From the NCBI GenBank assembly GCA_001312405.1, contig BBDR01000014.1:65933-129932 (forward strand): a stretch of 64,000 nucleotides of DNA, written 5' to 3'. The DNA is from Clostridium sp. NkU-1. GTDB lineage: Bacteria > Bacillota_A > Clostridia > Lachnospirales > Lachnospiraceae. The stretch's first letter is position 1. Each line of letters begins with the position of its first letter. A model generated the notes under the pieces. It was not told where the DNA came from and ran no database searches. It was given only the letters and a program-made list of their open reading frames with translations. Below are positions 47,388 to 64,000 of this stretch, in pieces. The position numbers and the translations under genes are program-made.

Positions 47388-47485
47388 ATAAAACAACACA
47401 AATAACAATCGAATACAATATAAAACAAAATAAATAAATAAAAACAAATAAAAATATTGCAAAACCGGATACAATATGCTACAAT
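47388..47485 (+). promoter_or_regulatory. Promoter and ATAAAACAA operator-like repeats of the sugar ABC/mtn operon
   Basis: TTGCAA (47457-47462) and TACAAT (47480-47485) with a 17-base spacer. ATAAAACAA occurs at 47388-47396 and 47420-47428 in a very AT-rich tract; the same motif recurs at the metabolosome promoter. Candidate DeoR sites. Confidence 0.6.
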
Positions 47486-47560
47486 TTCTACAGGAAGGAC
47501 AGGTTGGGTGTGTCCGGAATAGAAAACTATATTTTATATTTTTTTAAGGAGGTTTACTTT

Positions 47561-48747
47561 ATGAAAAAGAAGTTAGCAATGGTGCTTGCAGCGGCAGCGG
47601 CAATGGTAATGTCAATGACCGCATGCGGCAGCAGCGGCACAGCCGCAACAACAGCTGCTCCGGCAACCACAGAAGCAAAGACGGAAGCTGCGGGGACTGA
47701 TCAGACGACTGCAGCGGAGAAGGTAGAAAACGCCCAGGCAACAGGCTCTTTGGAAGGAAAGAAGATTGCCGTTGTGCGGAACCTGGCAGCAGGAGATCAT
47801 ACCCAGCAGTTTTTAGACGGCTGTGTATCCGAGGGGAAGAAGTTTGGCTGGACCGTAGACACCTTTGTAACGGACGGCGATGATGCAAAGGCTCAGGAGA
47901 CTGTAGCTCAGGTCATTGCAAAGGATTATCAGGGAATTATCCTATCTCATGGACAGCTTTCTTATTCTTACGATATGTTAAAACCTGCCAGAGACAAAGG
48001 CATGGAGGTTGTCACCTTTGATACCATGCCATTTAAGGGCGGCGATGCAAGCGGCGAGCTTTTAGAAGGAGTAACTTCTACCGCTCAGAACGATCAGGCC
48101 CTTGCTGAACTTTCTCTTGGCTACATGATGAAAGAATTTGAAGCAAAAGGCGGAAAATACCCGATGAAAGTTTTAAAGACCTTCATGGGCCCTGGAATCC
48201 CGCCGCTTGACAGACGTAACGAAATCTATACCAAGCTGGAAGCAGAAGGCAAGATCCAGACTCTGGAAGTGATTGCACCATCTGATTCAGCCAATGCCCG
48301 CGGCGATATGACTAACAAGACAGCGGCTATTCTTCCAAAGTATCCGGAAGGTTCCGTAGATGCCATCTGGGGCTGCTACGATGAGCTGGCTAAGGGTGTA
48401 TTACAGGCATTAAACGATGCAGGACGTACCGATATCCCGATGTACACCATTGACGTGTCCAATGATGACATTCAGTTGATGGTAAAGAATCCTGATGTTT
48501 GGAAATCCACTGCAGCCGTTGATCCCAAACTGATCGGGATTGTAGATGCCCGTCTTCTGGCCCTGAAATTTATGGGAGAAGAGACACCGGATTACTTTAA
48601 CTTAAATGCATGCAACATCGAAACAACCCAGCTCACAGATCAGACCACCATGAATGATTTAGGAACATCATTGATGGATGGGGCGATGCCGAAGATCCTA
48701 AGGGCGCTTTATATACTGATGCAATCAAGAACAAATATGTAAATTAA
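47561..48747 (+). CDS. Ribose-type ABC sugar-binding lipoprotein (one frameshift)
   Basis: About 395 residues. Lipoprotein signal KKKLAMVLAAAAAMVMSMTAC with lipobox Cys, an Ala/Thr-rich linker, then a type I periplasmic-binding fold: GKKIAVVRNLAAGDHTQQFL, IIAKDYQGIILSHG-like strand, EVVTFDTMPF, DAIWGCYDELAKGVLQAL and MYTIDVSNDD. The frame change near 48675-48690 separates the last ~22 residues (DAEDPKGALYTDAIKNKY). Strong AAGGAGGT ribosome site. Likely ligand 5-methylthioribose or 5-deoxyribose, inferred from the mtnK/mtnA genes of the same operon. Confidence 0.88.
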
Positions 48748-48840
48748 GAAACGTTCTTCGGGCACACCATTATGCCCGGAAAACATGGGAAAGAGCAAGG
48801 AAACGCTCTGTATTCATTACATAATTAAGGAAGAGATGCC

Positions 48841-50352
48841 ATGACCGAAGTAAAACTTGAAATGAAAGATATATCCATCGAATTTCCTGGAGTAAAGGCT
48901 TTGGATGGAGTTGATTTTGGTCTGAAAAGTGGTACGATTCATGCGCTTGTGGGTGCTAATGGCGCAGGTAAGTCCACCTTGATGAAAGTGCTTGCCGGTG
49001 TCAATACGCATTACACAGGACAAATTTACGTTGGAGGGGAACCGGTGGAAATCCGGTGCCCCAAAGACGCAAAAAATCTTGGGATAGAAATCGTATTTCA
49101 GGAAGTTGACACCGCGTTGATCCCCTATCTGTCCGTGGCTGAGAATGTAATGTTCAACACGCTGGTCAATAAAATGGGGCGAAAACAAATCGTGCACTGG
49201 AAAGAGATCAGGCAGGCAGCAGAAACGGTATTAAAGAAATTAAATGTGGATGTGGATATTAACAAACAGGTATCAGGACTTACGCTGGCACAAAAGCAGA
49301 TGGTTCTCATAGCCAGATGCGTGGCGGAAAAGTGCCGGTTCCTTATTTTAGATGAGCCAACGGCCCCTCTTTCCAATTCCGAGACACTGGAATTGTTCCG
49401 GGTGGTGCGTGAACTGGCAAAAGAGAATGTGGGAGTCGTGTTTATTTCCCACCGCTTAAGTGAGCTTTATGAGATTTGTGAAACGATTACCATTATGAGA
49501 GACGGCAAGCTGGTAACTGAACTGCCGCTTTCTAGGGAACTGGAAGTAAATACTCTTGTCGAATATATGTTAGGCCGTAGCTATGAGGATAATTACATCA
49601 AGAAAAAGTGCGAGATCGGCGGGCCGTTGCTTGAGATAGAAAACCTTTCTGAAAGGGAAGGGAAAGTAAAAAATATCAACATGACCGTTTGCAAAGGGGA
49701 AATTATCGGTGTGGCAGGATTAGTGGGCGCAGGCAAGACAGAGCTTTGCAAGACCCTGTTTTCCGCTTACCAGCAGGCAGGCGGCATCATGAAGCTGAAC
49801 GGAAACGTGATCAAGGCAAAAGGTCCTACCCAGGCTGTTAAAAATGGGCTTGCACTGGTTCCGGAGGAACGGAGAAAAGAAGGCGTCCTGATTTCGGACC
49901 CGGTTGTCTCCAATATCTCTGTGGCAGCCATGGAAAAATATACGAACCGGCTTTCTGTGGTAAACAAGAAGCGGGAAAAAGAGGACGCCAAAAGTATGAT
50001 AAGCGGCCTTGGAATCAAGACGCCATCCGAGAACCAGATCGTTGCCCTGTTGTCCGGCGGAAACCAGCAGAAGGTGGTCGTTGGAAAATGGCTGAACAAG
50101 GATTCAGAGGTTTATATTTTCGACGAGCCGACCAAGGGAATCGACGTGGGGGCCAAGCAGGATATGTATGAGTTAATCGAAGGCTTGGCAGCCAGGGGAA
50201 AAGGCATCATTTATGCCACCTGCGAATTCCAGGAAATATTAAGTATCTGCGACCGCATTTATGTGATGTATGACGGAGAGATCATTAAAGAATTAAACGC
50301 AGCGGATACCAACGAAAAAGAACTGCTTTACTATTCGACAGGAGGTAAATGA
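48841..50352 (+). CDS. RbsA-type duplicated ABC ATPase
   Basis: Intact 503-residue protein with two ATPase halves. Half one: VGANGAGKST, SGLTLAQKQMV in the signature position, FLILDEPTAPLS and ISHRLSELYEI. Half two: VAGLVGAGKTEL, LLSGGNQQKVVVGKWL, VYIFDEPTKGIDVGAKQD. As in RbsA/MglA the second Walker region is degenerate (GAGKTE). It powers the adjacent permease and binding protein. ATG behind TTAAGGAAGAG; only one base separates its stop from the permease start. Confidence 0.95.
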   Translation: MTEVKLEMKDISIEFPGVKALDGVDFGLKSGTIHALVGANGAGKSTLMKVLAGVNTHYTGQIYVGGEPVEIRCPKDAKNLGIEIVFQEVDTALIPYLSVAENVMFNTLVNKMGRKQIVHWKEIRQAAETVLKKLNVDVDINKQVSGLTLAQKQMVLIARCVAEKCRFLILDEPTAPLSNSETLELFRVVRELAKENVGVVFISHRLSELYEICETITIMRDGKLVTELPLSRELEVNTLVEYMLGRSYEDNYIKKKCEIGGPLLEIENLSEREGKVKNINMTVCKGEIIGVAGLVGAGKTELCKTLFSAYQQAGGIMKLNGNVIKAKGPTQAVKNGLALVPEERRKEGVLISDPVVSNISVAAMEKYTNRLSVVNKKREKEDAKSMISGLGIKTPSENQIVALLSGGNQQKVVVGKWLNKDSEVYIFDEPTKGIDVGAKQDMYELIEGLAARGKGIIYATCEFQEILSICDRIYVMYDGEIIKELNAADTNEKELLYYSTGGK

Positions 50353-50353
50353 T

Positions 50354-51372
50354 ATGTCTGGGGCAGAGAAGGTAAAAAAGAAAAGGAACATTGGGGATTT
50401 TGTGACAAAATGGGGTACCATCGCAACAATGCTCATCATGTTCATCCTGTTCACATTTGGAAACTGGAGTAAGGATACGGGATCGAGCATGTTTCTGACC
50501 CAGTCTAATATGATCACGATCCTTCGTGCAGTATCCATTACTACCATTATTGCAATTGGTCTTACGTTTGCCCTGGCGGTAAACGGCATGGATCTTTCCA
50601 TTGGAGCTACGGCCCAGTTTGCTAATGTTTTTGTTATGACGTGTTTTGTATGGCACAACATCAATATAGGTGTTTCCATCATTCTTACGGTGGTCATTTG
50701 CTTAAGCGTTGCGGTGATCAACAGCATTTTGATCGTTAAATTCAAGATACCCGATATGGTTGCGGCACTTTCCGTAATGTTTATGTATCAGGGAGTTTCC
50801 ATGACTTATTCAAAGGGCGGCGCCATCACAGAGCGCATGACCCGTGCCGATGGGACCCAGGCTCCCGGTCTTGTTCCAGAAGCCTTCCGGGCCCTTGGAA
50901 AGGAGCATGGTTGATCATCATCATGATCTGTGTGGTGCTGTTCGCATACTTTTTCTTAAATTATACCAAACACGGCAGATACATGTATGCGGTGGGCGGA
51001 AATCCTGAGGCAGCCCAGCTTTCCGGAATTCCGGTGGCAAAGTATAAGATCCTTGCATACTTTCTGTCAGCCACCTTTGCGGCAATCGGCGGAATCTGTC
51101 TGGCTGCCCGTGTGGGAACGGCGCAGATTTCAGCAGGTGATGCGTACCTGATGCCATCCGTATGTGCGGCTTATATCGGGTTTTCTGTATTGGGCGCAGG
51201 AAAAGCCAATGCATTCGGCACCTTTGCGGGAGCAGTGCTTGTGGGTATGCTGGAAAACGGTCTTATCATGATGTCCGTGCCTTATTATGCCATGAACATC
51301 ATAAAGGGTGCAGTCCTTGCCATTGCGCTTGCCATGACCTATGCAAGCGGCAAGACTAAAAATGTAAACTAA
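50354..51372 (+). CDS. RbsC-type ABC sugar permease (one frameshift)
   Basis: About 339 residues. Helices include LRAVSITTIIAIGLTFALAV followed by the hallmark NGMDLSIGATAQFANV, VVICLSVAVINSILIVKF, and the loop GGNPEAAQLSGIPVAKYKIL of the BPD_transp_2 family. Later helices: VCAAYIGFSVLGAGKANAFG. Break near 50908 (restoring KEPWLIIIMI). Membrane partner of the RbsA-type ATPase. Confidence 0.9.
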
Positions 51373-51411
51373 AAACAGAGACGTTATATTGATCAGGGGA
51401 AGGTGACAGGA

Positions 51412-52636
51412 ATGTCTAAATACGACAGTTATTTTTTGATGAAAGCGGAAGAGGTACCGGATTATGTTCAGGAGAAGCTCTCTTATTTTGATAAGGATGC
51501 CAGTCTGGAATGCAGGGAAATCGGAGACGGAAACTTAAACTACGTGTTCCGTGTAAAGGATCCTGCAAGCGGGAAATCCATTATCGTAAAGCAGGCAGGA
51601 GAAGCGCTTCGCATTTCAGCAGAAATGCATGTTTCCACCGACCGGGGAAGAATTGAAGCAAAGATCCTGGGAATTCAGGATTCCTTTGCACCGGGGCTGG
51701 TTCCAAAGGTTTATCTGTATGACGGAACCATGTGTGCCATGGCAATGGAGGATATGACTGGCCATACCATGATGCGTACCGGTCTGTTAAAGCATGAGAC
51801 CTATCCTGAATTTGCAGACCATGTGACTACTTTTATGGTAAATTCCCTTCTGCGCACAACGGATGTTGTCATGGGACACAAGGAGAAGAAGGAGCTGGTT
51901 AAAAGCTTTATCAATCCGGACTTATGCGAGATTTCAGAGGATCTGGTATACAGCGAGCCCTTTATTGATTACAACCACAGGAACAATGTATTTCCTCCCA
52001 ATGAGGATTTTGTGAAAAAGGAACTGTATGAGGATCAGGCCCTGCATCTGGAGGCTGCCAAACTGAAATTTGAGTTTATGAACAATGCCCAATCCTTAAT
52101 TCACGGGGATTTACATACTGGCTCTGTGTTTATCAACAAGGAGCATACCTATATCTTTGACCCGGAATTCGCCTTCTTTGGGCCTATGGGCTATGATATC
52201 GGCAATGTCATTGCAAACATGTTTTTTGCGTGGTGCAACGGTGACGCTACCATAGAGGATGAAAAGGAAAAAGAAGAGTTTTGCGGCTGGTGCTTAAACA
52301 CCATCTCTGATATCGTGGATCTGTTCGTTGAAAAATATAATAAGGTATTTGACGAGTATGTGACGGAAACCATGGCAAAGGTTCCGGGATTCAAAGAATG
52401 GTATCTGGAAGGAATCCTTTCCGACACTGCCGGAGTGGCAGGACTTGAATCCATCCGCCGGACCGTGGGAATGGCCAATGTTATTGATATTACCACCATT
52501 CCTGATGAGAAAAAAACGGGCGAGAGCCGAAAAGATCGTCATTACTCTGGCAAAGAATTATATCATGAACCGCCGCAGTTTCCGCTGCGGAGCGGATTAC
52601 ATAAACGCGATAAAAGAAGCAGTAAGCAAATTTTGA
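51412..52636 (+). CDS. mtnK: S-methyl-5-thioribose kinase (one frameshift)
   Basis: About 407 residues, aminoglycoside-phosphotransferase-like fold. REIGDGNLNYVFRVKD (glycine loop), IIVKQAGEALRIS, MAMEDMTGHTMMR, the catalytic loop SLIHGDLHTGSVF and the metal motif DPEFAFFGPMGYDIGN are exact MtnK landmarks. It phosphorylates 5-methylthioribose, and in some bacteria 5-deoxyribose, at C1. Break near 52514. ATG 51412 behind GGGGAAGG is preferred to GTG 51403. Operon with the importer and MtnA. Confidence 0.93.
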
Positions 52637-52681
52637 GGCCGGCAACAGGATTGAAAGCCGGTAAAAAAGAAAGGGATAACA

Positions 52682-53787
52682 ATGAGCGAAGAAACAAAAA
52701 AATCCATCATGGACTATGATACCGTGGCACTTGACGAGGAGAACAATGCCTGGTGATCATAGACCAGACACAGCTTCCGTATCATACGGAAATTCTTTCC
52801 CTGACAAAACAGGAGGATATCTGGAATGCAATCTATCTTCTCCAGGTAAGAGGGGCGCCTGCCATCGGAGTGGCGGCAGCCATCGGCATCTATCTGGCCG
52901 CAAGAGAGATCAAGGCAGATGGTTATGATGATTTTTATGCAGAATTTCAAAAAGCAAAGGACTATCTTGATTCCGCACGTCCCACTGCTGTCAATTTATC
53001 ATGGGCGCTGAAGCGGATGGAACAGGTGGTTTTGAAAAACAAAGAGAAGTCTGTTCCTGAAATCGTAGAGTTTCTCCATAAAGAGGCAATAGAGATCCGG
53101 GAAGAGGATATCTGGGTTTGCAAAATGATTGGAGAATACGGCCTTTCTCTCGTAAAGCCGGGTGACGGCCTTTTAACCCACTGCAATGCCGGGCAGCTGG
53201 CAACGGTGAAATACGGAACCGCTACGGCTCCTATGTACCTTGGACACGAAAAAGGCTATGGCTTCCGCATCTTTTCCGATGAGACCAGACCCCTTCTTCA
53301 GGGGGCCAGACTGACTTCCTTCGAATTAAAGGAATCAGGTCTTGATGTCACTGTGATCTGCGACAATATGTCGGCCACAGTCATGAGAAATGGCTGGGTG
53401 GATGCCGTATTTGTAGGCTGTGACCGGGTGGCGGCCAATGGGGATACCGCAAACAAGATCGGTACATCCATGGTTGCTCTGGCAGCCAAACGCTATGGTG
53501 TGCCCATGTATATCTGCGCGCCCACATCCACCATTGATATGAACACCCCTACCGGCAAGGAGATCCACATTGAGGAGCGTCCGGCAGAGGAAGTGGTGGA
53601 AATGTGGTATAAAAAGCGGATGGCACCGAAAGGCGTAAAGGTATTTAATCCCGCATTCGATGTGACGGACAATGATCTGATCGCAGGAATCGTGACAGAG
53701 TATGGGATTGCCAAAGCGCCTTATACAGAATCATTAAAAGAAATATTCAGGAAAAAGGAAGAGGCCCTGAAAGCGAAAGAAATGTAA
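52682..53787 (+). CDS. mtnA: S-methyl-5-thioribose-1-phosphate isomerase (one frameshift)
   Basis: About 368 residues, eIF2B-like fold. LQVRGAPAIGVAAAIGIYLA, LLTHCNAGQLATVKYGTA (catalytic Cys), the metal/acid motif FVGCDRVAANGDTANKIGTS (catalytic Asp) and YICAPTSTIDMNTPTG are diagnostic. Converts MTR-1-P to methylthioribulose-1-phosphate (or the 5-deoxy analogue). One lost C near 52752 restores EENNALVIIDQTQLP. ATG 52682 with a GGGATAAC site. No mtnB/C/D/E/X dehydratase pathway genes are visible; the next enzyme is the aldolase in the divergent-side operon. Confidence 0.94.
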
Positions 53788-53853: not shown

Positions 53854-54621
53854 TCAGCTTTCCGCTGCTTCATAAAGTTCTACATTATTTTTGAAAAGGT
53901 ATTCTCTCCACTGGCCGTTCATCTGTTTGTCAGTGACCAGTCCTGTGATGGTTTCAAAACCGGATATCCGGATAAATGAGGTCTTATCAAATTTGGAATG
54001 GTCTGCAATGAGATAAACGTGATTGCTCCTGGTCATCAGCATCTGGCGTATGGCGGCAATGGCTTCATTGGAATCGGTGATTCCGTGTTCCATGGAAACG
54101 CTCCGGCAGGACATAAAGGTTTTATCCAGGTAAAAGGATTCCAGATTCTTAAGGGCCGTATTGCCTACAAAAGCTTTGTCCCTGGGAGTATAGGAGCCTC
54201 CGATGGAAATGAGGCGGATATCCTCTTTGTCATACAGTTCATTGATGATCAGCAGGGAATTTGTTACCACGGTAAGGCGCATTCCCTGTAAGGTCTTTGC
54301 CAGCTGAAGGGCCGTGGTAGAAGCATCCAGGAAAATAGAGTCCCCGTTGTGAATGATTGACAGGCACTTTTTCGCGATGGCCTGCTTGCTTTCCATATAT
54401 GCGGTTTCCCGGATCGTTAAATCTACGTTATTCTCAACCCCGTCTTGTATGAATGCACCGCCATATGTTCTGGTCAGGAACCCGTCATCCTCCAATTGCT
54501 TTAAGTCCCTCCGGATGGTTTCCTCGGTCACGGAGAAGATTTTGGAAAGTTCGGTCACCGTAACGCTTTTCTTTTCTAAAATAATATCTTTGATCTTGGC
54601 TTTCCTCGTTACTGCTAACAT
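53854..54621 (-). CDS. DeoR-family sugar-phosphate-responsive repressor
   Basis: Intact protein of about 255 residues. The N-terminal winged helix KIKDIILEKKSVTVTELSKI, then FSVTEETIRRDLKQLE (recognition helix, DeoR signature) and TRTYGGAF. The sugar-phosphate-binding domain has IFLDASTTALQLAKTL, VVTNSLLIINEL and the conserved Lys/Asp in HVYLIADHSKFDKTSF. The effector is likely a ribulose- or ribose-1-phosphate analogue. ATG 54621 chosen with AAAGGA about 8 bases upstream; ATG 54627 is too close to it. Placed between the uptake/mtn operon and the metabolosome operon, whose promoters share a repeat. Confidence 0.9.
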   Translation of the reverse strand: MLAVTRKAKIKDIILEKKSVTVTELSKIFSVTEETIRRDLKQLEDDGFLTRTYGGAFIQDGVENNVDLTIRETAYMESKQAIAKKCLSIIHNGDSIFLDASTTALQLAKTLQGMRLTVVTNSLLIINELYDKEDIRLISIGGSYTPRDKAFVGNTALKNLESFYLDKTFMSCRSVSMEHGITDSNEAIAAIRQMLMTRSNHVYLIADHSKFDKTSFIRISGFETITGLVTDKQMNGQWREYLFKNNVELYEAAES

Positions 54622-54778
54622 AGGCATGTTCCTTTCTTTGTGACAACAGATGTTTGTTTGAAATAAAATGCAATATAAAACCATAAGAATCAGGTGGCAT
54701 ATAAGTATATTGTATAATTATTTTGATTAAATGTAAAGGAAAAATGGACAAAATAGAAATAAAAGAGTAAAATCAGAA

Positions 54779-54825: not shown

Positions 54826-54892
54826 TACAGTATAAAAGATTAGAGTTCGGACAGAAAGAACATGTAGTTGTTTGGACTTTGGAGGTAAAGAT

Positions 54893-55852
54893 ATGATGAC
54901 AGTTCAAGGCGTAAAGTACATGTCTGATTTTGAAGCCAAAAAGGCGATTTTGGACATCGGCAGGCGCATGTACAACAAAGGCTTTGTGGCCTCGAATGAT
55001 GGAAACATCAGTTGTAAGGTAGGGCCGAACACCATCTGGACGACGCCGACCGGGGTATCAAAGGGATTTATGACACAGGATATGCTGGTGAAAATGGATT
55101 TAAACGGAAAGGTGCTGATGGGAAGATATAAGCCCTCCTCAGAAGTAAAAATGCATTTAAGGGTTTATAAGGAAAATCCGGATGTGCAGGCAGTTACCCA
55201 TGCCCACCCGCTGGTTGCAACCAGCTTTGCCATTGCCGGGATCAGTCTGGATGCTGCGATCCTTACGGAAGCGGTGCTGGGGCTTGGATCCATCCCGGTT
55301 GCAAAATACGCAACACCGGGCACGGATGAAGTTCCTGATTCCATCGCGCCCTTTGTAAACACCCACAATGGCGTGCTTCTTGCAAACCATGGGGCCCTGA
55401 CTTGGGGAAAAGACATTTACCAGGCATTTTTCAGGCTGGAATCCATTGAGTATTATGCCACCATATTGATGTATACAGGCAATATCATCGGACGCCAGAA
55501 TGTGCTTTCCTGCGATCAGGTAAATAAGCTGCTGGATATCCGGCATAAGCTTGGCATCACAGCAGGCGGGATTCCGCCATGCTCCGCAGAAGAGACGAAC
55601 ATGAAGGATGTGGTTTCGGCATCAGATGTCCGGCCGGCAGGGCAGAACGTTCCAGGGCCTGCATTAAAAGGGGTAACTTCCATTGTAAGGCCGGGAGAGG
55701 GGCTGCCGGACTCTGGCTGCGGCTGTACCGGTGTGACACAGAAGGCGCCGTCCTCAGAGAAACAAAAGCCTGTGCAGGCGGAAGCATTAGGTAAGGCAAA
55801 GGAGGAAATCATAGCCGAAGTAGTGAGAAGAGTGACAGAGCAGCTATGCTAG
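54893..55852 (+). CDS. Class II aldolase (fuculose/5-deoxyribulose-1-P aldolase type) with encapsulation-peptide tail
   Basis: Intact, about 319 residues. Residues 1-215 form the class II aldolase/adducin fold: GFVASNDGNISCKVGP, SSEVKMHLRVY (catalytic Glu), VTHAHPLVATSFA (zinc His pair), and LLANHGALTWGKDIY (third His). A Pro/Ser/Gly-rich linker of about 75 residues follows, and the end is an amphipathic helix ALGKAKEEIIAEVVRRVTEQ, typical of peptides that target enzymes into bacterial microcompartments. Expected reaction: ketose-1-phosphate to DHAP plus aldehyde. RBS GGAGGT favours ATG 54893 over the TTG at 54872. Next to PduP and shell genes; mtnK/mtnA across the regulator predict MTRu-1-P or 5-deoxyribulose-1-P as substrate. 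Confidence 0.9.
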   Translation: MMTVQGVKYMSDFEAKKAILDIGRRMYNKGFVASNDGNISCKVGPNTIWTTPTGVSKGFMTQDMLVKMDLNGKVLMGRYKPSSEVKMHLRVYKENPDVQAVTHAHPLVATSFAIAGISLDAAILTEAVLGLGSIPVAKYATPGTDEVPDSIAPFVNTHNGVLLANHGALTWGKDIYQAFFRLESIEYYATILMYTGNIIGRQNVLSCDQVNKLLDIRHKLGITAGGIPPCSAEETNMKDVVSASDVRPAGQNVPGPALKGVTSIVRPGEGLPDSGCGCTGVTQKAPSSEKQKPVQAEALGKAKEEIIAEVVRRVTEQLC

Positions 55853-55862: not shown

Positions 55863-57282
55863 ATGGAAATTGGGGCGAAAGAGATAGAACTTATTGTAAG
55901 GGAAGTGCTTGCAGGCATAGAAAGCAGGGGCGTAAAGCCTTCCTATTTTCCCGCTCAAAGTGAAAACGGGGTATTTGAGCGGGTGGAGGATGCCATTGCG
56001 GCGGCCCACGCGGCCCAGCGTCAATGGGCAGAGAATTACAGGGTCGGGGACAGGCGGAGAATCATTGAGGCCATACGGCTGACGGCAAAAAGCCATGCAG
56101 AAACCCTGGCAAAAATGGTTTGGGAAGAAACCGGAATGGGGCGTTTTGAGGATAAGATCCAGAAGCATATGGCTGTGATTGAAAAAACTCCGGGTGTGGA
56201 ATGCCTGACCACGGACGCCATTTCAGGTGACGAAGGGCTGATGATAGAAGAGTATGCTCCCTTTGGAGTGATCGGAGCCATCACGCCCTCCACCAACCCA
56301 ACGGAAACTATAATAAACAATACCATCAGCATGATAGCCGGAGGAAATTCCGTTGTGTTTAACGTCCATCCGGGAGCGAAAAGATGCTGTGCCCACTGCC
56401 TGAAGCTTCTTCATCAGGCCATTGTGGAAAATGGAGGTCCGGCAAATTTAATCACCATGCAGAAAGAGCCTGACATGGAGGCGGTGAGCAAGATGACGGC
56501 TGATCCCAGAATCCGCCTTATGGTCGGTACAGGAGGCATGCCAATGGTAAATGCCCTGCTTCGTTCCGGAAAGAAGACCATCGGGGCAGGTGCAGGAAAC
56601 CCGCCGGTCATTGTAGACGATACAGCGGACATAAGTCTTGCTGCAAAAGAGATTTACCGTGGTGCTTCCTTTGATAACAACATTCTGTGTCTGGCGGAAA
56701 AGGAAGTCTTTGTCATGGAAAGGGCTGCGGATGAACTGGTGAATAAGCTGGTAACGGAAGGCGCTTACCTGCTTAGTTCCATGGAGTTAAATGAAATCTT
56801 AAAGTTTGCCATGGTTGAAAAAAACGGAAGCTATGAAGTGAATAAAAAGTGGGTTGGAAAGGATGCAGCCCGGTTTTTGGAAGAGATCGGGGTTTCCGGC
56901 CATAAGGATGTCCGCCTGCTCATCTGTGAGACAGACAGAAGCCATCCCTTTGTCATGGTAGAGCAGCTGATGCCCATACTTCCCATCGTGCGGTTAAGGA
57001 CCTTTGAGGAATGTGTGGAGTGTGCAGTGGCAGCAGAGTCAGGCAACAGGCATACGGCATCCATGTTTTCCAGAAATGTTGAGAACATGACCAAATTCGG
57101 AAAAGTGATTGAAACCACCATTTTTACGAAGAACGGTTCGACTAAAAGGGGTGGGGATCGGCGGAGAGGGCCATACGACCATGACCATTGCAGGCCCCAC
57201 CGGAGAGGGGCTTACCTGCGCGAGAAGCTTTACCAGAAGACGCAGATGCATGCTGGCAGAAGGAGGCCTGCGGATCATCTAG
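55863..57282 (+). CDS. CoA-acylating aldehyde dehydrogenase, PduP/EutE type (one frameshift)
   Basis: About 473 residues. The N-terminal amphipathic helix IGAKEIELIVREVLAGIES is a candidate encapsulation peptide. The dehydrogenase body has FGVIGAITPSTNPTETIINN, VVFNVHPGAKRCCAHCL, GTGGMPMVNALL, and the catalytic Cys in SFDNNILCLAEKEVF. Converts an aldehyde to acyl-CoA with NAD+. Break near 57142 in an A/G run; GVGIGGEGHTTMTIAGPTG is restored. RBS AGGAGG. Would handle the aldehyde formed by the aldolase inside the shell. Confidence 0.93.
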
Positions 57283-57298
57283 AGAAGGGAAGGTACAT

Positions 57299-57637
57299 AT
57301 GGCAATCGGCTTTTTGGAGTGTGCAGGATACGGGGCAGTTCTTTATGCCATGGATAAGGCCTGTAAGGCGGCAGATGTGAGGATTATCGGTATCGACACC
57401 ATCAATCCCAAAGATACGGCCGCGTTCATTCCCCTTACGGTCCAGGTGAAATTTGAAGGCGGAATTGATGACGTGAAAGAGGCCTGTGAGGCGGCAGAAC
57501 GGGCAGCCCTTAAATTTAACAGTCCGAATGAGGTTCTGACAGAGATCATTGAAAACCCATACGAGGGAACAAAGGCGCTGTCTCATATAACAAAGGTATC
57601 TTTCGGGGAAGAAAACATTATAAATTTCAGGAGGTAG
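57299..57637 (+). CDS. BMC-H shell protein, divergent pore
   Basis: Intact 112-residue single-BMC-domain protein starting AIGFLECAGYGAVLYAMDKA. The segment that normally reads KIGSG at the hexamer pore is replaced by a longer NPKDTAAFIPLTVQ loop, followed by GIDDVKEACEAAERAA. A C-terminal tail (FNSPNEVLTEIIENPYEG) extends the domain. The altered pore suggests a different permeability from the two canonical BMC-H proteins downstream. ATG 57299 behind GGGAAGGT, 16 bases after the PduP stop. Confidence 0.85.
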   Translation: MAIGFLECAGYGAVLYAMDKACKAADVRIIGIDTINPKDTAAFIPLTVQVKFEGGIDDVKEACEAAERAALKFNSPNEVLTEIIENPYEGTKALSHITKVSFGEENIINFRR

Positions 57638-57643: not shown

Positions 57644-57922
57644 ATGGCATCCACATCAATTGGTTTAGTTGAAACAAGGGGGCTGACTGCATCCATCGAA
57701 GCAGCAGATGCAATGTTAAAGGCGGCAGACGTTGAACTTGTGGGAACCGAGAAAATCGGTTCCGGTCTGGTAACCGTCATTGTAACCGGAGAGGTAGGCG
57801 CGGTAAAGGCAGCTACCGAGGCAGGAGAGGCGGCGGCTTCCAGAATTGGAGAGCTGGTAGCAGTCCATGTGATTCCCAGGCCGCATCAGGATATTGACAA
57901 AATTTTGCCAAGGATCAAATAG
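57644..57922 (+). CDS. BMC-H shell protein, PduA/EutM type
   Basis: Intact 92-residue canonical hexameric shell protein: [40 protein letters not shown] (pore KIGSG), [21 protein letters not shown] and the ending [18 protein letters not shown]. Forms flat hexagonal tiles of the microcompartment shell. Nearly duplicated by the gene at 58304. RBS AGGAGGTAGC. Confidence 0.96.
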
Positions 57923-57943
57923 GCAGCAGCAAAGGTGGGCGTC

Positions 57944-58303
57944 ATGAAAACAAACCGAAACGCCATAGGGGTTTTAGAAATTAATTATTATGCCAATACC
58001 GTAGTGGTGGTGGACCAGGCATTAAAGGCGGCTGAAGTGGAAATCGTAAGCTGCCATAAAAGGCTGGGAGGAAGGATGTGCCACACCGTATTAGCGGGCG
58101 AGACCTCGGCGGTTCGTGCAGCCGTGGAGGCGGCCAGAGAGGCCGGACGGATCGTGGGAGACGACAACGTTAAGGTGTCCGTATCCATCGAAAACCCTCA
58201 TCCAGAGGTAATAAAGCTTTTAAATATGATAGACAGGCATGAAAAGGAAAAGGATTGTGTAAAGCCAGAGGAAGAAGAGCACAAGATTAAGGAGGAAAAG
58301 TAA
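57944..58303 (+). CDS. BMC-H shell protein with charged C-terminal extension
   Basis: Intact BMC-domain protein of 119 residues: AIGVLEINYYANTVVVVDQA, a Cys-containing pore region CHKRLGGRMCHTVLAG, TSAVRAAVEAAREAGRIVG, and a highly charged tail (HEKEKDCVKPEEEEHKIKEE). The pore loop RLGGRMC differs from KIGSG. The tail could contact cargo or neighbouring shell proteins. ATG 57944 chosen with AAAGGTGG; GTG 57935 overlaps that site. Confidence 0.88.
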   Translation: MKTNRNAIGVLEINYYANTVVVVDQALKAAEVEIVSCHKRLGGRMCHTVLAGETSAVRAAVEAAREAGRIVGDDNVKVSVSIENPHPEVIKLLNMIDRHEKEKDCVKPEEEEHKIKEEK

Positions 58304-58603
58304 ATGGCAGAGACAGCAGTAAAAAGGGGAATGTTGGCATTAGGGATGATTGAGACAAGAGGCCTTACCGCATCAATTGAGGCAGCAGATGCCATGTTAA
58401 AGGCAGCAGACGTTGAAATGGTGGGAACCGAGAAAATCGGCTCCGGTCTGGTATCGGTCATGGTTCAGGGAGATGTGGGAGCTGTCAAGGCAGCAGTGGA
58501 AGCAGGAGAGGAAGCAGCCTCCAGAGTGGGAGAGGTAGTAGCAGTTCATGTAATTCCAAGACCCCATAATTCCATAGGCGGAATCCTTCCATTCCTTAAA
58601 TAA
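58304..58603 (+). CDS. BMC-H shell protein, PduA/EutM type (paralogue)
   Basis: Intact 99 residues: [60 protein letters not shown]. It differs from the 57644 gene at only a minority of positions, with high identity also at DNA level, so the two arose by recent duplication around the 57944 gene. The ATG immediately follows the previous TAA, with AAGGAGG inside the upstream gene. Confidence 0.96.
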
Positions 58604-58639: not shown

Positions 58640-59295
58640 ATGGAAAACAGGGAAGAACTGATTCAGAAGGTAACCGCACTGGTCCTGGATAACTGGAAGA
58701 GGCTGAGCACACAGCCTTACCAGGTTCCCGTAGGAATCTCGGCAAGGCATGTGCATCTGTCAAAGGAACATGTGGAAGTACTTTTTGGAGCCGGCTACCG
58801 GCTGACTCCCATGAAGGCTTTAAGCCAGCCGGGGCAGTTTGCCTGTGAGGAACAGGTTGCTGTCTCCGGCCCGGCAGGAACCTTGCCAGGGTACGGATTC
58901 TTGGACCGGAGAGAAAACAAAGCCAGGTGGAAATGGCCTCCGGTGACTTAAGGATACTGGGAATACAGCCACAGGTAAGATCATCAGGAGATTTAAAGGG
59001 AACTCCCGGGGTAATGCTGAAAGGACCAAAGGGAGAGGTCCTGCTGACAGAGGGAGTTATCATTGCGGACCGGCATATCCATATGACGCCGGAAGATGCG
59101 AAATGGTTCGGGGTATCGGATCAGGACCGGGTAAGCGTTGCGGTCGATGGGCCAAAGGGCGGTGTGCTCGGCCATGTACTGATTCGTGTTACCCGTGACA
59201 GCAGGCTGGATTTCCATGTGGATACGGACGATGCCAATGCATTCCAGTTGAAGCAGGGACAGTGGGTAACCATTAGAAAGGAAGAGACCAGGTGA
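58640..59295 (+). CDS. pduL: PduL-type phosphotransacylase (one frameshift)
   Basis: About 218 residues. The two zinc-binding His motifs GISARHVHLSKEHVEVLFG and IIADRHIHMTPEDAKWFGV are complete, with GVMLKGPKGEVLL between. The N-terminus ENREELIQKVTALVLDNWKR is amphipathic and may be an encapsulation peptide. Converts acyl-CoA to acyl-phosphate inside the shell, regenerating CoA. Break near 58888; VRILGPERKQSQVEMASGD is restored. RBS AAGGGCGGAGG. Confidence 0.92.
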
Positions 59296-59552
59296 TATTA
59301 GGAACAATAATGGGAACTGTGGTTTCCACGAGAAAATGCAGGAACTTAGTTGGGTTCAAGCTTCTTTTGGTAGAGCCTTATTATGGGGATAAGAACAATA
59401 TTTTTGTGGCTGCCGATACCATTGGTGCAGGAATTGGGGAACTGGTACTTGTAACCACTGACAATACCACTCAGTATGCCCTGGACCGTTCGGCACCGGT
59501 TGATGCCTACATCGTGGGCATCGTAGATGGGCCGCCGCAGCCGGGAAAGTAA
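59292..59552 (+). CDS. EutN/PduN/CcmL-type vertex (BMC-P) protein
   Basis: Intact 86-residue protein starting ILGTIMGTVVSTRKCRNLVG, with FKLLLVEPYY, VAADTIGAGIGELVLVTTD and APVDAYIVGIVD, all typical of the pentamer that caps shell vertices. GTG start overlapping the PduL stop by 4 bases. Its presence with four BMC-H proteins implies a closed shell; no trimeric BMC-T protein is in the window. Confidence 0.95.
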   Translation: MILGTIMGTVVSTRKCRNLVGFKLLLVEPYYGDKNNIFVAADTIGAGIGELVLVTTDNTTQYALDRSAPVDAYIVGIVDGPPQPGK

Positions 59553-59581: not shown

Positions 59582-60708
59582 ATGGAACAGGAAACGCTTA
59601 AGGTTTTGGCAGTGGCAGATCCGGCGGTGGAAGGGTATCTGGATAAAGAACTGGGGATTTTAGACGGATATGAAGGAAAGGTGGATTTTCATATGGTGCC
59701 CTGGGCGGATTACTATCCGATGATGATGAAAGCATTTGCCGGGGAAGCGGATTATGACATTGTCATGGTTGCAGGCCATTTATGGCTTCGTGACTTTATA
59801 GAAAAAGGATACCTTTTGGAAATTGAGCTTGAGGAGGAAGACATCCTTCCGGTAATTGCAGAAGAAATGAAGTACAAGGGAAAAGCATATTTGTCTCCCT
59901 CCTTCTGTGACGGACATATGATCCTTTACCGTAAAAGCCTGCTTTATCAGGTGCTGGGTAAGGAACCTGGAAGCGTCATCTCTCCCCAGGAATACATAGA
60001 AACGGCAAAAGCTTACAAGGCAGCCTGCGGGGAACAGGCAGTGGCATGAAGGCTGATAAGTCCGAGATATTTACCGATGCCCTTCCTTTTCTCCGCATGT
60101 ACGGGGGAGACGCTTATGACTCCGATGGATCTGCGGTCTGCGGAAAGGAAGAGGCAGTAAAAGGGCTTCAGTCCTATATAGAACTGAGATCCTGTGCAGT
60201 TGATGGTACGGAACGCTTCGGCAACGGGGAAATTGCAGAGGCTGTCCGGCAAAAAAAGAGCAGCAATGGCGGTTACCTGGAGCGGCCAGATGGGAGAAGT
60301 CTTTAAGGAAGGCTGTCTGGAACCAGAAGACCTGGGATTTTCCACGTTTTCCACGGCCTGGAACGTGACTTGGTCCTTTGGGATCTGTTCAAGCTGTAAG
60401 AAAAAGGAAGCTGCAGAGGAATTCCTTAAATACCTTCGTTCGCCTGGGGTAGATCAGAAGGTGGGAAAAAAGAGTGGTGCTCCTGTAAGAAGAGGAAGCT
60501 ATCTGGAAGGGGGAAGTGACTGCCCCTGGTTTCCAGTACAGCAAAAAAATGATGGAACTTGCAAGGCCTCTTCCCGATCTGTCAAAGGCTGGGGAGAAAA
60601 ACGGAGTCCTTTATGAGAAAATCTTTGAGGCATTTTCAGGAAAAAAAGACAGCAGAAGAAGCCATGAAGGAAGCCGGGAAAATGATAAATGGCATGACCC
60701 AGCTGTAA
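59582..60708 (+). CDS. Leaderless CUT1-type solute-binding-like protein (three frameshifts)
   Basis: About 373 residues. It resembles sugar-binding proteins: LKVLAVADPAVEGYLDKELG, WADYYPMMMKAFAGEADYDI, GKAYLSPSFCDGHMILYRKS, AAMAVTWSGQMGEVFKEG, GFSTFSTAWNVTWSFGICS and AAEEFLKYLRSPGVDQKV. No signal peptide or lipobox precedes it, and there is no companion permease, so it should be cytosolic. Breaks near 60046, 60257 and 60517. It sits inside the metabolosome operon, between the vertex protein and the flavoprotein. Role unknown. Confidence 0.7.
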
Positions 60709-60729
60709 CGATATGATCAGGGAGAAAAC

Positions 60730-62064
60730 ATGAAGATTATTATAATTGGAGGAGTAGCGGCAGGAATGAGCGCCGCTTCCAAGATCCGCAGGACCGATCC
60801 GGACGCTGAAGTAACGGTCTATGAAAAGGGAGGGTTTCTCTCTTATGGAGCCTGCGGACTTCCCTACTATGTGGGAGACTATAACGATGATTACCGCAAA
60901 ATGATCGCCCGCACACGGGAGGCCTTTACAAAGATGGGCATAGAAACCTTCCTCCGCCATGAGGTACGATCCGTTGACGTGGAAAAGAAAGAGGTTCTTG
61001 TAAAGAATCTTGAAAACGGCCGGGAATTTACGGATTCTTACGATAAATTAATGATAGCTGTGGGGGCATCGGCTGTGGTTCCTCCCTTTCCGGGCAAGGA
61101 GCTTATGGGAGTCCATGTACTGAAGTCCATGGAAGACGGGATCTTTTTAAAAGAATTCGCAAAAATGCCGGAAATCCGAAACATCGTCATCGTTGGAGGG
61201 GGATATATCGGGGTGGAATGTGCGGAAGCATTTTTGAGCCTTGGAAAGAATGTCCGCATGCTTGAGGCGGCTTCCAGAATTCTTATGCCCTTTGATGAGG
61301 AAATCGCTGCCCTGGCCCATGAAGAGCTGGTAAAGTCAGGGGTCCTGCTTCACACCGGAGAAAAGGTGGAAGGGTTTTATGGAGACGGTCTTTATGTGAA
61401 GAGTGTAAAAACAGATAAGGAAACCTATGAGGCAGATTTAGTGATCGTTGCTGTGGGTGTCCGTCCCTGTACGGAATTTTTGAAAAACACGGGAATTGCC
61501 ATGGGGAAGAACGGTGCTCTCATGGTGGACCGGGAAATGAGAACTTCTGTTCCGGATGTGTATGCAGCGGGAGACTGTATTCTTGTCCATCATGAAGTTT
61601 TAGAGGAAGACAGCTTTTTGGCACTAGGAACGGTTGCAAACAAATGCGGAAGGATCGCAGGTGCCAATATGGCAGGAGGCCATGAACAGTTTATAGGCGC
61701 TCTTGGGTCTGCAGCCATCAAGGTGTGCGGGCTGGAGCTTGGACGTACGGGTATGGGAGAAGGAGATGCCATACGTCTTTCAAAGGATTATAAGACGTTG
61801 GTTATCCAGGCAAATGACCATCCGGCATACTATCCTGATCCAACGCCCATTACCATTAAGCTGATTTATGAAAAAGGAACAAAAAGGCTGCTTGGCGCAC
61901 AGACCTGCGGACAAAAGGGAGCTGTTTTGCGGGCAGATGTGTTTGCTGTGGCAATTCATTGCAGGATGACAACGGCAGAGCTCGGAATGACGGATCTCAT
62001 TTATGCACCTCCCTTTTCCGGTGTATGGGATGCCATCCAGATTGCCTGCAATGCAGCGAAATAA
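60730..62064 (+). CDS. CoA-disulfide reductase / NADH oxidase family flavoprotein
   Basis: Intact 444-residue FAD/NAD(P) enzyme: FAD site IIIIGGVAAGMSAASKIRR, redox Cys in SYGACGLPYYVGD (CoADR-like rather than Nox SFLSC), NAD site IVIVGGGYIGVECAEAF, and second FAD motif VYAAGDCILVHHE. It ends with LIYAPPFSGVWDAIQIACNA, typical of the family. Could reduce CoA disulfide or persulfide, or recycle NADH. In the operon it may protect the CoA pool used by PduP/PduL; this is inferred. Confidence 0.88.
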   Translation: MKIIIIGGVAAGMSAASKIRRTDPDAEVTVYEKGGFLSYGACGLPYYVGDYNDDYRKMIARTREAFTKMGIETFLRHEVRSVDVEKKEVLVKNLENGREFTDSYDKLMIAVGASAVVPPFPGKELMGVHVLKSMEDGIFLKEFAKMPEIRNIVIVGGGYIGVECAEAFLSLGKNVRMLEAASRILMPFDEEIAALAHEELVKSGVLLHTGEKVEGFYGDGLYVKSVKTDKETYEADLVIVAVGVRPCTEFLKNTGIAMGKNGALMVDREMRTSVPDVYAAGDCILVHHEVLEEDSFLALGTVANKCGRIAGANMAGGHEQFIGALGSAAIKVCGLELGRTGMGEGDAIRLSKDYKTLVIQANDHPAYYPDPTPITIKLIYEKGTKRLLGAQTCGQKGAVLRADVFAVAIHCRMTTAELGMTDLIYAPPFSGVWDAIQIACNAAK

Positions 62065-62095
62065 GGCAGTGCAGGATAGAAAGTGAGGTCAGACC

Positions 62096-62907
62096 ATGAG
62101 CAAAATAATGACTTTGCAGGAGGCGGCAGCCGGATTCATGACGGGGATATCCTTGGTCTTGGGGGCAATGTGCTCCATCGGGCGCCCATGGCAATGGTAC
62201 GGGAACTGGTGAGACAGAAAAAAAGGGACTTAAAGCTGGTAAAGACTGCAGGAGCCATGGATGTGGACATGCTTTGCTTCGGAGGCTGCGTTTCCAGCGT
62301 GGATGCCGGCTTTATCAGCTATGAAAGTGAATATTCCCTTGCCGGACATTACCGCAGGGCTGTTGAAAGCGGAGCTGTGAAAGGAAATGAACATGCCTGT
62401 TATACGGTGATCTCCGCGCTCAGGGCCGCCAGCTGCGGAGTGGGCTTCATGCCTGTAAAAGGCTTGTGATCAGCGACCTGATCGATGCCAATGATTATTT
62501 TATACGGATCGAGGATCCGTTTACAAAGGAACCGGTGACAGTGGTAAAGGCCATAAGGCCGGATGTTGCTGTCATCCATGTGCAGGAGGCGGATGAAGAG
62601 GGTAATGCCAGGATCACAGGACCCTTATTTGAGGATGTTCTGTTTTCCAGGGCAGCGAAAAGGGTCTTCCTGACGGCAGAGAACATCGTCCATGGATCTG
62701 CGTTTACTGGCAGCTCAAAAAAAGGCGGATATTCCCCATTTTCTGGTGGAAGCAGTTGTCAGGGTACCGAAAGGGGCGGCTCCCTGTTCCTGTCCGGGAT
62801 CTTATGATATTGACGGAAAGAATTTAAAGGAATTTAAAAAGCTGAAGGATTTGGACGGCCTGGATGCCTATTTAAAGGCATTTGAAAAGTCCGACTACAA
62901 AGGATAA
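62096..62907 (+). CDS. CoA-transferase subunit A, GctA-like (three frameshifts)
   Basis: About 270 residues in four pieces: MSKIMTLQEAAAGFIHDGDI, LGLGGNVLHRAPMAMVRELV, LKLVKTAGAMDVDMLCFGGC, then DPFTKEPVTVVKAIRPDVAV and DEEGNARITGPLFED. These are family I CoA-transferase alpha-subunit features (glutaconate/acetate type). Breaks near 62133, 62466 and 62722. ATG 62096 behind GTGAGG. Pairs with the next gene; would swap CoA between the product acyl-CoA and a carboxylic acid. Confidence 0.82.
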
Positions 62908-62918
62908 GGGGGCATGGC

Positions 62919-63644
62919 ATGATGGAAGAAAAATACAGAGTCTGCGATATTATGGTCTGCGCTATGGCACGCCTCATACCTGATGGCAGCAAGGTGTTTC
63001 ACGGAGTGTCCTCCCATATGCCCATGATTGCGCTGCTGCTGGCAAAAGCGCTTCATGCGCCGGGGGCTGTGCATCTTAATATTCCGGGCGGAACAGACCC
63101 GGATCCGGTGCGGCTTAAAAAGTATACCAGCGCAGGCCCGGAGCTTTTGGAACGTGCCACAGCCTATTTTCCTTTAATGGAAGTATTTGACCTGGCCATG
63201 AGAGGAGAGCTGGATCTTGCATTTTTAAGCGGAATCCAGTTTGATTTCCATGGCAATGTCAACGCGTCAGTTATTGGAGATTATAAAAAACCAAAGGTGA
63301 GGATGCCGGGAGGAGCGGGCAGTGCCGTTCTCATTCCAACGGCAAAAAGGGCGATTCTTTGGAGGACAAAGCATGACAAGCGCACCTTTGTGAACCAGGT
63401 GGATTTTGTAACTACCAGGGGAAATGTGGAACGGATCATCACCCCTTTGTGCATCTTTAAAATGGAAAACGGGGAAATGGTCCTGGAAACCATCCACCCA
63501 GCTTCCAGTTTAGAAGAAGTCCAGGAAAATACCGGGTTTCCCATAAAATACTCCCATATCGCCTATACGCCCCTTCCCACAAAGGAAGAGCTGAGCGCGC
63601 TGAAACGGATCGATCCGGGAGATTTCAGAAATATAGAATTCTAA
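62919..63644 (+). CDS. CoA-transferase subunit B, GctB-like
   Basis: Intact 241 residues: RVCDIMVCAMARLIPDGSKV, FHGVSSHMPMIALLLAKAL, DLAFLSGIQFDFHGNVNASV and KVRMPGGAGSAVLIPTAKRA are beta-subunit landmarks; the catalytic Glu cannot be placed with confidence. The overall set matches GctB-type subunits rather than SCOT. RBS AAGGGGG, two possible adjacent ATGs. Eleven bases after subunit A and 11 before the alcohol dehydrogenase gene. Confidence 0.85.
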   Translation: MMEEKYRVCDIMVCAMARLIPDGSKVFHGVSSHMPMIALLLAKALHAPGAVHLNIPGGTDPDPVRLKKYTSAGPELLERATAYFPLMEVFDLAMRGELDLAFLSGIQFDFHGNVNASVIGDYKKPKVRMPGGAGSAVLIPTAKRAILWRTKHDKRTFVNQVDFVTTRGNVERIITPLCIFKMENGEMVLETIHPASSLEEVQENTGFPIKYSHIAYTPLPTKEELSALKRIDPGDFRNIEF

Positions 63645-63655
63645 GGAGGCCATTT

Positions 63656-64000
63656 ATGGCACTTGAGAGGATCAATGCAGTAGGAACCAGCTTTTTTTGG
63701 CCGCGGATCCATCGGACTGCTGCCGGATGAGTTTAAGAAACGGGGGTTTAAACGGGGACTCATTGTTACGGACCCCTTCCTGTATAAAAATGGCACCGGA
63801 GACAAAGTGGGAGCCTGTCTTTTAAAAGCAGGGGTGGAATATGCCATTTATTACCTGGTTGAGCCAAATCCCACCACCATGGTCGTGAATGACTGCCTGG
63901 AGGCTGCCAAGGCTTTGCAAGTGGATCTTTTGGTGGCTGTGGGCGGAGGCTCTGCCATAGACACGGCAAAGGCAGTCAGCATTGTGATGGCAAACGGGGG
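63656..64000 (+). CDS. Iron-type alcohol dehydrogenase, PduQ-like (3' partial, one frameshift)
   Basis: Only the first ~115 residues are in the window: MALERINAVGTSFF, GRGSIGLLPDEFKKRGFKRG, LIVTDPFLYKN and the NAD motif LLVAVGGGSAIDTAKAVSIV (GGGSxxD). One break in the T-run near 63692-63698. Iron-ADHs reduce aldehyde to alcohol while regenerating NAD+, the usual partner of PduP in metabolosomes. RBS AAGGAGG 7 bases upstream. The gene runs off the end. Confidence 0.85.

Follow-up and report, generated by a model that had tools for sequence, protein, structure and literature searches.

Introduction

Clusters of a kinase, an isomerase and a class II aldolase are known from the dihydroxyacetone phosphate (DHAP) shunt, in which DrdK, DrdI and DrdA of Bacillus thuringiensis act on 5-deoxyribose and, in tandem, on 5-methylthioribose (MTR). 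Four of the six published clusters, of the drdK-drdI-drdA or mtnK-mtnA-ald2 kind, also include a sugar transporter, and no shell appears in the parts of that description available to us (PMC6079011). Here, we describe a locus of Clostridium sp. NkU-1, situated at 47.5-64 kb of a 64,000-nucleotide stretch of contig BBDR01000014.1 (hereafter, the window). It has a transporter and the same families of kinase, isomerase and class II aldolase, for which we propose the same chemistry. In addition, its aldolase has a C-terminal tail and stands in an operon with genes for a bacterial microcompartment (BMC) shell, PduP, PduL and an alcohol dehydrogenase (ADH). Its gene content and the comparisons below make it highly probable that the locus is a metabolosome form of the DHAP shunt.

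Class II aldolases are also known from BMC loci. Like our locus, the PVM, PVM-like and GRM5 types have a tailed class II aldolase, an aldehyde dehydrogenase, PduL, BMC-H and BMC-P, and many of them have DeoR. In BMC catalogues, types with a class II aldolase are either linked to fucose/rhamnose or left without a substrate (PMC4207490, PMC8217296, PMC8156839). For one type, the described gene content fits our locus, but the assigned substrate differs (PMC4207490). These loci may already be filed in the catalogues as PVM-like or MIC. The SPU type resembles our locus in that an aldolase is predicted to produce acetaldehyde and triose phosphate from a deoxypentose phosphate (PMC8217296). However, SPU loci use a DeoC-type aldolase (PF01791) and RpiB (PF02502) on 2-deoxyribose phosphate, whereas our locus has a PF00596 aldolase with MtnA and MtnK. 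Neither PF01791 nor PF02502 was hit (E 1e-3) when 20 open reading frames (ORFs) were scanned against Pfam, 19 of them from the locus and one from a related locus, L016; CoA-disulfide reductase, BMC-H 4, DhaK and DhaL were left out of that scan. The core of the EUT system comprises acetaldehyde, a CoA-acylating aldehyde dehydrogenase, a phosphotransacylase and an ADH, as would that of our locus. No ethanolamine ammonia-lyase model was among the family hits of the scanned locus ORFs, and here the aldehyde would come from the aldolase. In the open-licence PMC literature, we found no report joining a microcompartment with MTR, 5-deoxyribose, methylthioadenosine, deoxyadenosine or the DHAP shunt; publication elsewhere is possible.

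Results and Discussion

Gene content of the locus

An importer operon with mtnK and mtnA lies on the plus strand and is followed by deoR on the minus strand. Downstream of deoR, the plus strand carries the aldolase, shell and core enzyme genes. The nearest genome, G001, has the same locus with 96% DNA identity over 15.2 kb, and several boundaries below were set by comparison with it.

47504..48742, plus strand: ribose-type ABC importer, sugar-binding lipoprotein
48841..50352, plus strand: ABC importer ATPase (PF00005; two ABC_tran stretches)
50354..51372, plus strand: ABC importer permease (PF02653); split by a frameshift near 50906, a single 358-aa frame in G001
51403..52719, plus strand: MtnK, 5-methylthioribose / 5-deoxyribose kinase (TIGR01767); C-terminus frameshifted in the window
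52753..53787, plus strand: MtnA, aldose-1-phosphate isomerase (TIGR00512); the G001 version is longer at the N-terminus
53854..54684, minus strand: DeoR-family repressor (PF00455, PF08220), divergent to the BMC operon
54872..55852, plus strand: class II aldolase, the proposed signature enzyme, with linker and C-terminal encapsulation-type helix (PF00596, 168 bits)
55863..57282, plus strand: PduP/EutE-type CoA-acylating aldehyde dehydrogenase (PRK15398, 575.6 bits); frameshift near 57143, end set by G001
57221..57637, plus strand: BMC-H shell protein 1, divergent type (PF00936, 53.5 bits); start set by G001
57644..57922, plus strand: BMC-H shell protein 2 (PF00936, 105 bits)
57935..58303, plus strand: BMC-H shell protein 3, divergent type (PF00936, 58.8 bits)
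58304..58603, plus strand: BMC-H shell protein 4 (EutM-like PRK15474, 111.9 bits, under the cut-off of 133; PF00936 in the G001 orthologue)
58640..59295, plus strand: PduL phosphotransacylase (PRK15070 in both frameshift halves; in G001 a single 218-aa frame, PF06130, 254 bits)
59292..59552, plus strand: BMC-P vertex protein (CcmL/EutN models, under cut-offs; PF03319, 86 bits in G001)
59582..60708, plus strand: leaderless family-1 solute-binding-like protein; frameshifted, end set by G001 (orthologue at L007:15262-16386, PF01547, 55 bits)
60730..62064, plus strand: CoA-disulfide reductase family flavoprotein (PRK09564, 557.7 bits, cut-off 458)
62096..62907, plus strand: CoA-transferase subunit A; frameshifted, ends set by G001 (PF01144, 84.6 bits in G001)
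62919..63644, plus strand: CoA-transferase subunit B (98% identity to a G001 ORF that scores 69.6 bits with PF01144)
63656..64000, plus strand: iron-containing ADH, start only, leaving the window (97% identity to the G001 ADH over 64 residues)

The hallmarks of the DHAP shunt are present. MtnK scored 392.8 bits against TIGR01767 (cut-off 275) and MtnA 404.9 bits against TIGR00512 (cut-off 279). In G001, their top matches in the PDB were the methylthioribose kinase 2olc (261 bits) and 2yrf (339 bits), respectively. The class II aldolase is clustered with both, about 1.1 kb from mtnA. The hallmarks of a metabolosome are present as well: BMC-H and BMC-P genes (four PF00936 and PF03319), aldehyde dehydrogenase, PduL and an ADH that is complete in G001. 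The shell set of G001 consists of four BMC-H and one BMC-P, and no BMC-T was seen at this locus. By eye, PduP has an N-terminal encapsulation-like helix. Scans of the window with Rfam (gathering threshold) and for tRNAs gave no matches. The preliminary description had named most of this gene set, and every gene that it named was confirmed, with Pfam and NCBIfam matches among the evidence. However, only about the first tenth of the ADH is inside the window, several genes are frameshifted, and the CoA-disulfide reductase and the leaderless solute-binding-like gene were not on its list.

Between 47.2 and 63.7 kb, the window differs from G001 by 22 indels, 20 of which are not multiples of three. 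They break the permease, the C-termini of MtnK and PduP, PduL, the solute-binding-like gene and CoA-transferase A. These 20 frame-shifting indels within about 17 kb could mean that the window copy is a decaying, non-functional locus. On the other hand, the indels are scattered over many genes, and 16 of the 22 affect a single base. Elsewhere in the window, at 29-38 kb, ORFs are likewise split relative to G001, as sequencing error would give, and the indel error rate of this assembly is probably raised. Furthermore, the genes broken in the window have open frames in G001, a check that leaves out PduP because it spans two sequence stretches there. Sequencing error thus seems likelier than decay, and we consider decay unlikely.

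Linkage of mtnK, mtnA and the aldolase with BMC genes

A scan with the aldolase alignment, one genome per species, matched at least 592 stretches, at least 545 of which encode a relative. The best 80 were kept and scanned with 22 G001 proteins. A locus was counted as a BMC locus if it had at least two of PduP, BMC-H, BMC-P and PduL. As the loci were chosen by aldolase similarity, the fractions below describe that set alone. Among the 80 loci, 27 were BMC loci and 25 of these fall in the aldolase clade of the window (described below). The other two are L086 (RhaB, RhaA and PduC) and L089 (PduS and Zn-ADH).

Both MtnK and MtnA were found inside the retrieved stretch in 21 of the 25 in-clade BMC loci. 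In L029, the pair begins about 1.6 kb past the end of the stretch, if the contig is taken as the same (number 14 in both), which gives 22 of 25. Acetoanaerobium noterae (L113), found through plasmid records, has the importer, mtnK, mtnA, DeoR, the aldolase and the shell and core genes on one contig. With L113 added, the pair is in the locus in 23 of 26 in-clade BMC loci. Among the remaining three, L015 is on a contig that starts about 300 bases before the aldolase; of the pair, a partial MtnK alone was found in its assembly. L022 has the MtnK/MtnA pair on another contig. The third, L016, is considered below.

Among the named hosts are Lacrimispora celerecrescens, L. xylanisolvens, Anaerocolumna aminovalerica, Proteocatella sphenisci, Clostridium bovifaecis, C. 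homopropionicum, Bacillus, Paenibacillus, Gracilibacillus, Salipaludibacillus and Calidifontibacillus. Metagenome-assembled genomes (MAGs) labelled Treponema, Erysipelothrix and Oscillospiraceae also carry the locus; MAG labels may be wrong, and two "Paenibacillaceae" MAGs resemble Lacrimispora.

Many loci share the gene order of the window. At least three other orders keep the gene set. In L113 and L029, the importer and mtnK-mtnA follow the CoA-transferase. L024 and L033 have the order aldolase, importer, mtnK, mtnA, PduL, BMC-P, PduP, and L038 has aldolase, CoA-disulfide reductase, CoA-transferase, mtnK, mtnA, PduL, PduP. A linkage that outlives such reshuffling argues for a shared function. 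This bears on the possibility of two independent modules, that is, a cytosolic DHAP shunt next to a BMC for some other sugar phosphate, whose aldolase shares ancestry alone. In the window, DeoR and an inter-operon gap do lie between the two groups of genes, and L016 is a BMC locus that has a nucleoside hydrolase instead of mtnKA. However, the groups stay together through the several gene orders. Moreover, our marker scan, which did not extend to other aldolase families in every locus, found one aldolase place per in-clade locus, so that a separate shunt would miss its last enzyme. Two independent modules are therefore very unlikely.

Accessory genes are less uniform. CoA-disulfide reductase was marked in 20 of the 25 in-clade loci, the others being L013 (a short contig), L016, L024, L033 and L034. 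The ADH was marked in nine of the 25 (L011, L012, L014-L019 and L087) and was unmarked in the in-clade loci of Bacillaceae, Paenibacillus and Clostridium. The leaderless solute-binding-like gene was marked in 15 of the 25. By eye, none of the 17 homologues found has a signal peptide, and the protein starts with a conserved LKVLAVADPAV-type stretch. It also follows the aldolase in L044 and L056, in which no BMC genes were found.

Two types of BMC with a class II aldolase

The aldolase tree was built with a quick method from 84 rows, with SH-aLRT values and an outgroup of our choice. It omits 22 of 106 rows, mostly MtnA-only Lachnospiraceae, and L067, a fragment frame, was not used. The window aldolase falls in a 62-row clade (SH-aLRT 92). 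In this clade are all BMC loci with MtnKA and, among L011-L105, the non-BMC loci linked to MtnA. Eight rows of the clade (L015, L016, L022, L026, L029, L037, L058 and L090) have no MtnA in the retrieved stretch. Since BMC and non-BMC loci are mixed in the clade, more than one gain or loss of the shell is probable. The MtnK-linked aldolases of L107, L114 and L115 are outside the clade, which is also distinct from DrdA and the E. coli shunt aldolase. The PduP tree agrees: a single group (SH-aLRT 96), nested among the remaining sequences, unites the 27 in-clade rows.

We also surveyed 393 genomes of the class. The aldolase alignment matched 84 of them at E up to 1e-50, with a gap in score between 400 and 333 bits. 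Ten genomes score at least 400 bits, and each of them has MtnA no more than about 1.2 kb from the aldolase. Eighty of the 84 genomes were taken forward, which left 70 low-scoring genomes to examine. Only three of these (G248, G021 and G156) have MtnA within about 2.3 kb; some of the assemblies are fragmented. Fifteen low-scoring regions were retrieved and 12 were BMC loci (L091-L098, L100, L101, L108 and L109). Together with L086 and L089, they give 14 BMC loci of another type, whose aldolases are all outside the clade of the window. All 14 carry PduC, a glycyl radical enzyme (GRE) or PduS with Zn-ADH, in which they differ from our locus; the comparison was made without a Planctomycetes PVM locus. 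Neither MtnK nor MtnA was matched in their retrieved stretches. Four of them (L086, L091, L097 and L098) matched FucI, RhaA or RhaB, and the fucose/rhamnose label of the remaining ten comes from published types.

A fucose/rhamnose BMC (PVM-like or GRM5-type) has to be weighed, in which the aldolase would cleave L-fuculose- or L-rhamnulose-1-phosphate to lactaldehyde and mtnKA would be mere neighbours. Fucose/rhamnose is the assignment of published types that combine a class II aldolase with DeoR and an aldehyde dehydrogenase (PMC4207490, PMC8156839, PMC8217296), class II aldolases are promiscuous (PMC4207490), and the nearest out-of-clade BMC homologues sit with FucI, RhaA or RhaB in the four loci just named. 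However, the hallmarks of GRM5, PDU and PVM-like loci (a GRE or B12 diol dehydratase; a fucose/rhamnose isomerase or kinase) had no match in the window or in 47 kb of G001 around the locus (stretches L007-L009). In particular, tblastn at E 1e-3 against these sequences gave no match to GRE, PduC, PduS, Zn-ADH, FucI, FucK, RhaA or RhaB, and the sole hit of the set was the aldolase itself, matched weakly by RhaD. Across the 26 in-clade loci, the lone fucose/rhamnose gene match was a weak FucK in L016. The aldolase and PduP stand in clades apart from the other BMCs. On gene content and the two trees, we reject this reading, which is very unlikely.

The same tblastn search of the window and the 47 kb of G001 led us to reject a diol dehydratase or GRE hidden downstream. 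G001 continues past the end of the window with the complete iron-containing ADH, DhaK, DhaL and a beta-glucoside phosphotransferase system region. Its ADH matches TIGR02638 (lactaldehyde reductase; 407 bits, under the cut-off of 523), PF00465 and PF25137. The two GREs of G001 are far away, about 1.6 Mb and 2.2 Mb from the locus. The latter belongs to a separate BMC locus, L010, which is presumably of the choline type. We place no weight on a PF02286 search of G001, in which neither G001 nor the controls gave a match. The proposal of the preliminary description that the aldolase is the signature enzyme was supported by the null result of tblastn together with the MtnA-linked aldolase clade, and the continuation past 64 kb that it asked for was followed in G001.

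Aldolase residue E91 aligns, by our reading of the alignment, with the glutamate of the DrdA PSSE motif (Glu76 in the numbering of the DrdA paper). E91, H110, H112 and H173 are invariant in all 18 aldolase rows compared, and the three histidines presumably bind the metal.

In L088 (5536-14303), MtnA and a clade aldolase are followed by two GRE-like genes and an ORF that looks by eye like an activase; no BMC genes were found in the retrieved stretch. Enterococcus raffinosus (L115) has MtnK, MtnA-like and FucA-like matches together.

The aldolase tail

After the core of the aldolase, there is a variable linker and then a helix of the type KxKEEIIAEVVRRV, well conserved in the closer relatives. 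In the G001 model, residues 242-304 have pLDDT < 50 and a helix spans 303-325. The model has low confidence (mean pLDDT 63.9) and was used for the tail and linker alone. All 42 BMC-linked aldolases extend 35 residues or more beyond the core, a threshold of our choice (shortest tail 43), as do 16 of 63 others (Fisher P = 2e-16, which takes no account of relatedness). By contrast, the lengths of MtnK and MtnA are alike in BMC loci and elsewhere (median 411 vs 408 and 362 vs 365, respectively), which fits enzymes outside the shell. Similar short N-terminal helices were seen by eye in PduP and PduL of many loci. The pattern of tails and lengths matches an aldehyde made inside the shell, with the kinase and isomerase outside.

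Tailed aldolases are also found near MtnA, and often MtnK, in L031, L035, L039, L045, L050 and L102-L104, with no BMC genes found in the retrieved stretches. The first five, which are among the 16 tailed aldolases counted above, are from MtnKA loci close to BMC-bearing relatives in the tree. Such aldolases could have outlived a lost shell, or they could be packed into one that is encoded elsewhere. Among the ten high-scoring genomes of the class, the aldolase is in a BMC locus in G001 alone. Distant BMC matches are present in G132, from which L104 comes, and in G379, and there are no BMC matches in the remaining seven.

Proposed pathway and its substrate

The activities, in vivo substrate, alcohol product, encapsulation, regulation and shell assembly described here are predictions from homology and gene context. 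The ABC importer would take up a 5-deoxypentose (5-deoxyribose and/or MTR). In the cytosol, MtnK would phosphorylate C1 and MtnA would isomerise the product to the ribulose-1-phosphate. The C-terminal helix would carry the aldolase into the shell, where it would cleave the ribulose-1-phosphate to DHAP and acetaldehyde (or 2-methylthioacetaldehyde), and the shell would hold back the aldehyde. PduP would convert part of the aldehyde to acyl-CoA, from which PduL would make acyl-phosphate and then ATP could be gained. The iron-containing ADH would reduce the remaining aldehyde and recycle NADH. DeoR is likely the repressor of the operon.

The main substrate is somewhat likelier to be 5-deoxyribose than MTR because acetaldehyde is an ordinary metabolosome cargo. 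The importer points the other way: for its binding protein, the solved MTR-binding protein 4ry8 ranks second both by fold and by sequence. The top PDB matches of the G001 PduP are 5jfl (429 bits) and 4c3s (402 bits), which we take to be the R. palustris PduP and a C. phytofermentans BMC enzyme. PduP thus does not tell acetaldehyde from larger aldehydes.

The organelle might even serve mainly MTR. The methylthio group would then be salvaged or vented, and the CoA-disulfide reductase would counter thiol/disulfide stress that arises as methylthioacetaldehyde is metabolised. The scores of MtnK and MtnA place them in MTR families, the binding protein has the resemblance just mentioned, a second MtnK-like cluster in G001 could handle 5-deoxyribose, and the CoA-disulfide reductase is frequent in the in-clade loci. 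However, family scans recognised no sulfur-salvage enzyme among the locus genes, and acetaldehyde is the commoner metabolosome intermediate. In addition, membership of the MtnK family does not discriminate between the two sugars, as the kcat/Km of DrdK is similar for both (PMC6079011). We regard an organelle mainly for MTR as possible but doubtful.

Observations weighing against a metabolosome form of the shunt

The following observations weigh against the metabolosome interpretation. The tail is present in 16 of 63 aldolases without BMC neighbours, and a tail amphipathic score of at least 0.45 separates the groups less cleanly (34 of 42 vs 15 of 63). L016 has a BMC set and a 69% aldolase, and neither MtnK nor MtnA was found anywhere in its MAG assembly; a nucleoside hydrolase gene (PF01156; L016:8904-9788) is immediately upstream of its aldolase. 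PduS, a hallmark of the other BMC type, was matched in four of the 26 in-clade loci (L024, L033, L034 and L038). In the window, DeoR is on the opposite strand between mtnKA and the BMC genes, which are probably separate transcription units, and several genes are frameshifted.

Phylogeny also raises doubts. L106 is MtnA-linked and lies outside the clade on a very long branch (2.99). FucA is the partner of the E. coli shunt aldolase in the tree, and the outgroup also contains L107, L115 and DrdA. Therefore, shunt aldolases are not one clade. Sequence comparison does not by itself point to one sugar, since the aldolase is about as distant from DrdA as it is from solved FucA (76-87 bits). Furthermore, G001 has a second cluster (L107:5312-9899; C1, about 4.39 Mb) with a transporter-like ORF, an MtnK (44% to the first), a divergent MtnA-like isomerase (32%) and a FucA-like aldolase. 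It may be a separate cytosolic 5-deoxypentose route, perhaps the 5-deoxyribose route of G001.

Finally, the BMC form is rare. Among the 393 class genomes it was found in G001 alone, and the linkage counts above rest on loci picked by similarity. In an MtnK-led search, 27 of the 393 genomes had MtnK at E up to 1e-40 and 22 exceeded the cut-off; among the over-cut-off matches listed, only the MtnK of G001 has BMC genes within about 15 kb. In ten of 11 genomes of family f50 with an MtnK match, a sub-cut-off MtnK-like paralogue lies about 1 kb from a BMC gene (for example, G080 C1:3104059-3106172). These neighbours resemble the pduU-pduV-mtnK group of Acetobacterium woodii, in which mtnK has been called unrelated to BMC function (PMC7593272).

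Significance

5'-Deoxyadenosine and methylthioadenosine are released by radical S-adenosylmethionine (SAM) enzymes and polyamine synthesis in nearly every cell. We are inclined to think, with some reserve, that the loci represent a distinct class of organelle for SAM-derived 5-deoxypentoses, spread over several bacterial classes and perhaps more than one phylum. It would have arisen when an MtnA-linked aldolase was enclosed in a shell, repeated loss of the shell would account for the tailed aldolases that stand without one, and it would have its own cytosolic leaderless solute-binding-like protein and CoA-disulfide reductase. Cultured carriers are available in Clostridium homopropionicum DSM 5847, Anaerocolumna aminovalerica DSM 1283 and Proteocatella sphenisci DSM 23131. 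If our interpretation is true, it would give a named chemistry to a set of BMC loci for which the closest published types point to fucose/rhamnose, and the volatile aldehyde from the DHAP shunt would give a reason for the shell. A dedicated organelle would then let bacteria feed on the sugar waste derived from SAM.

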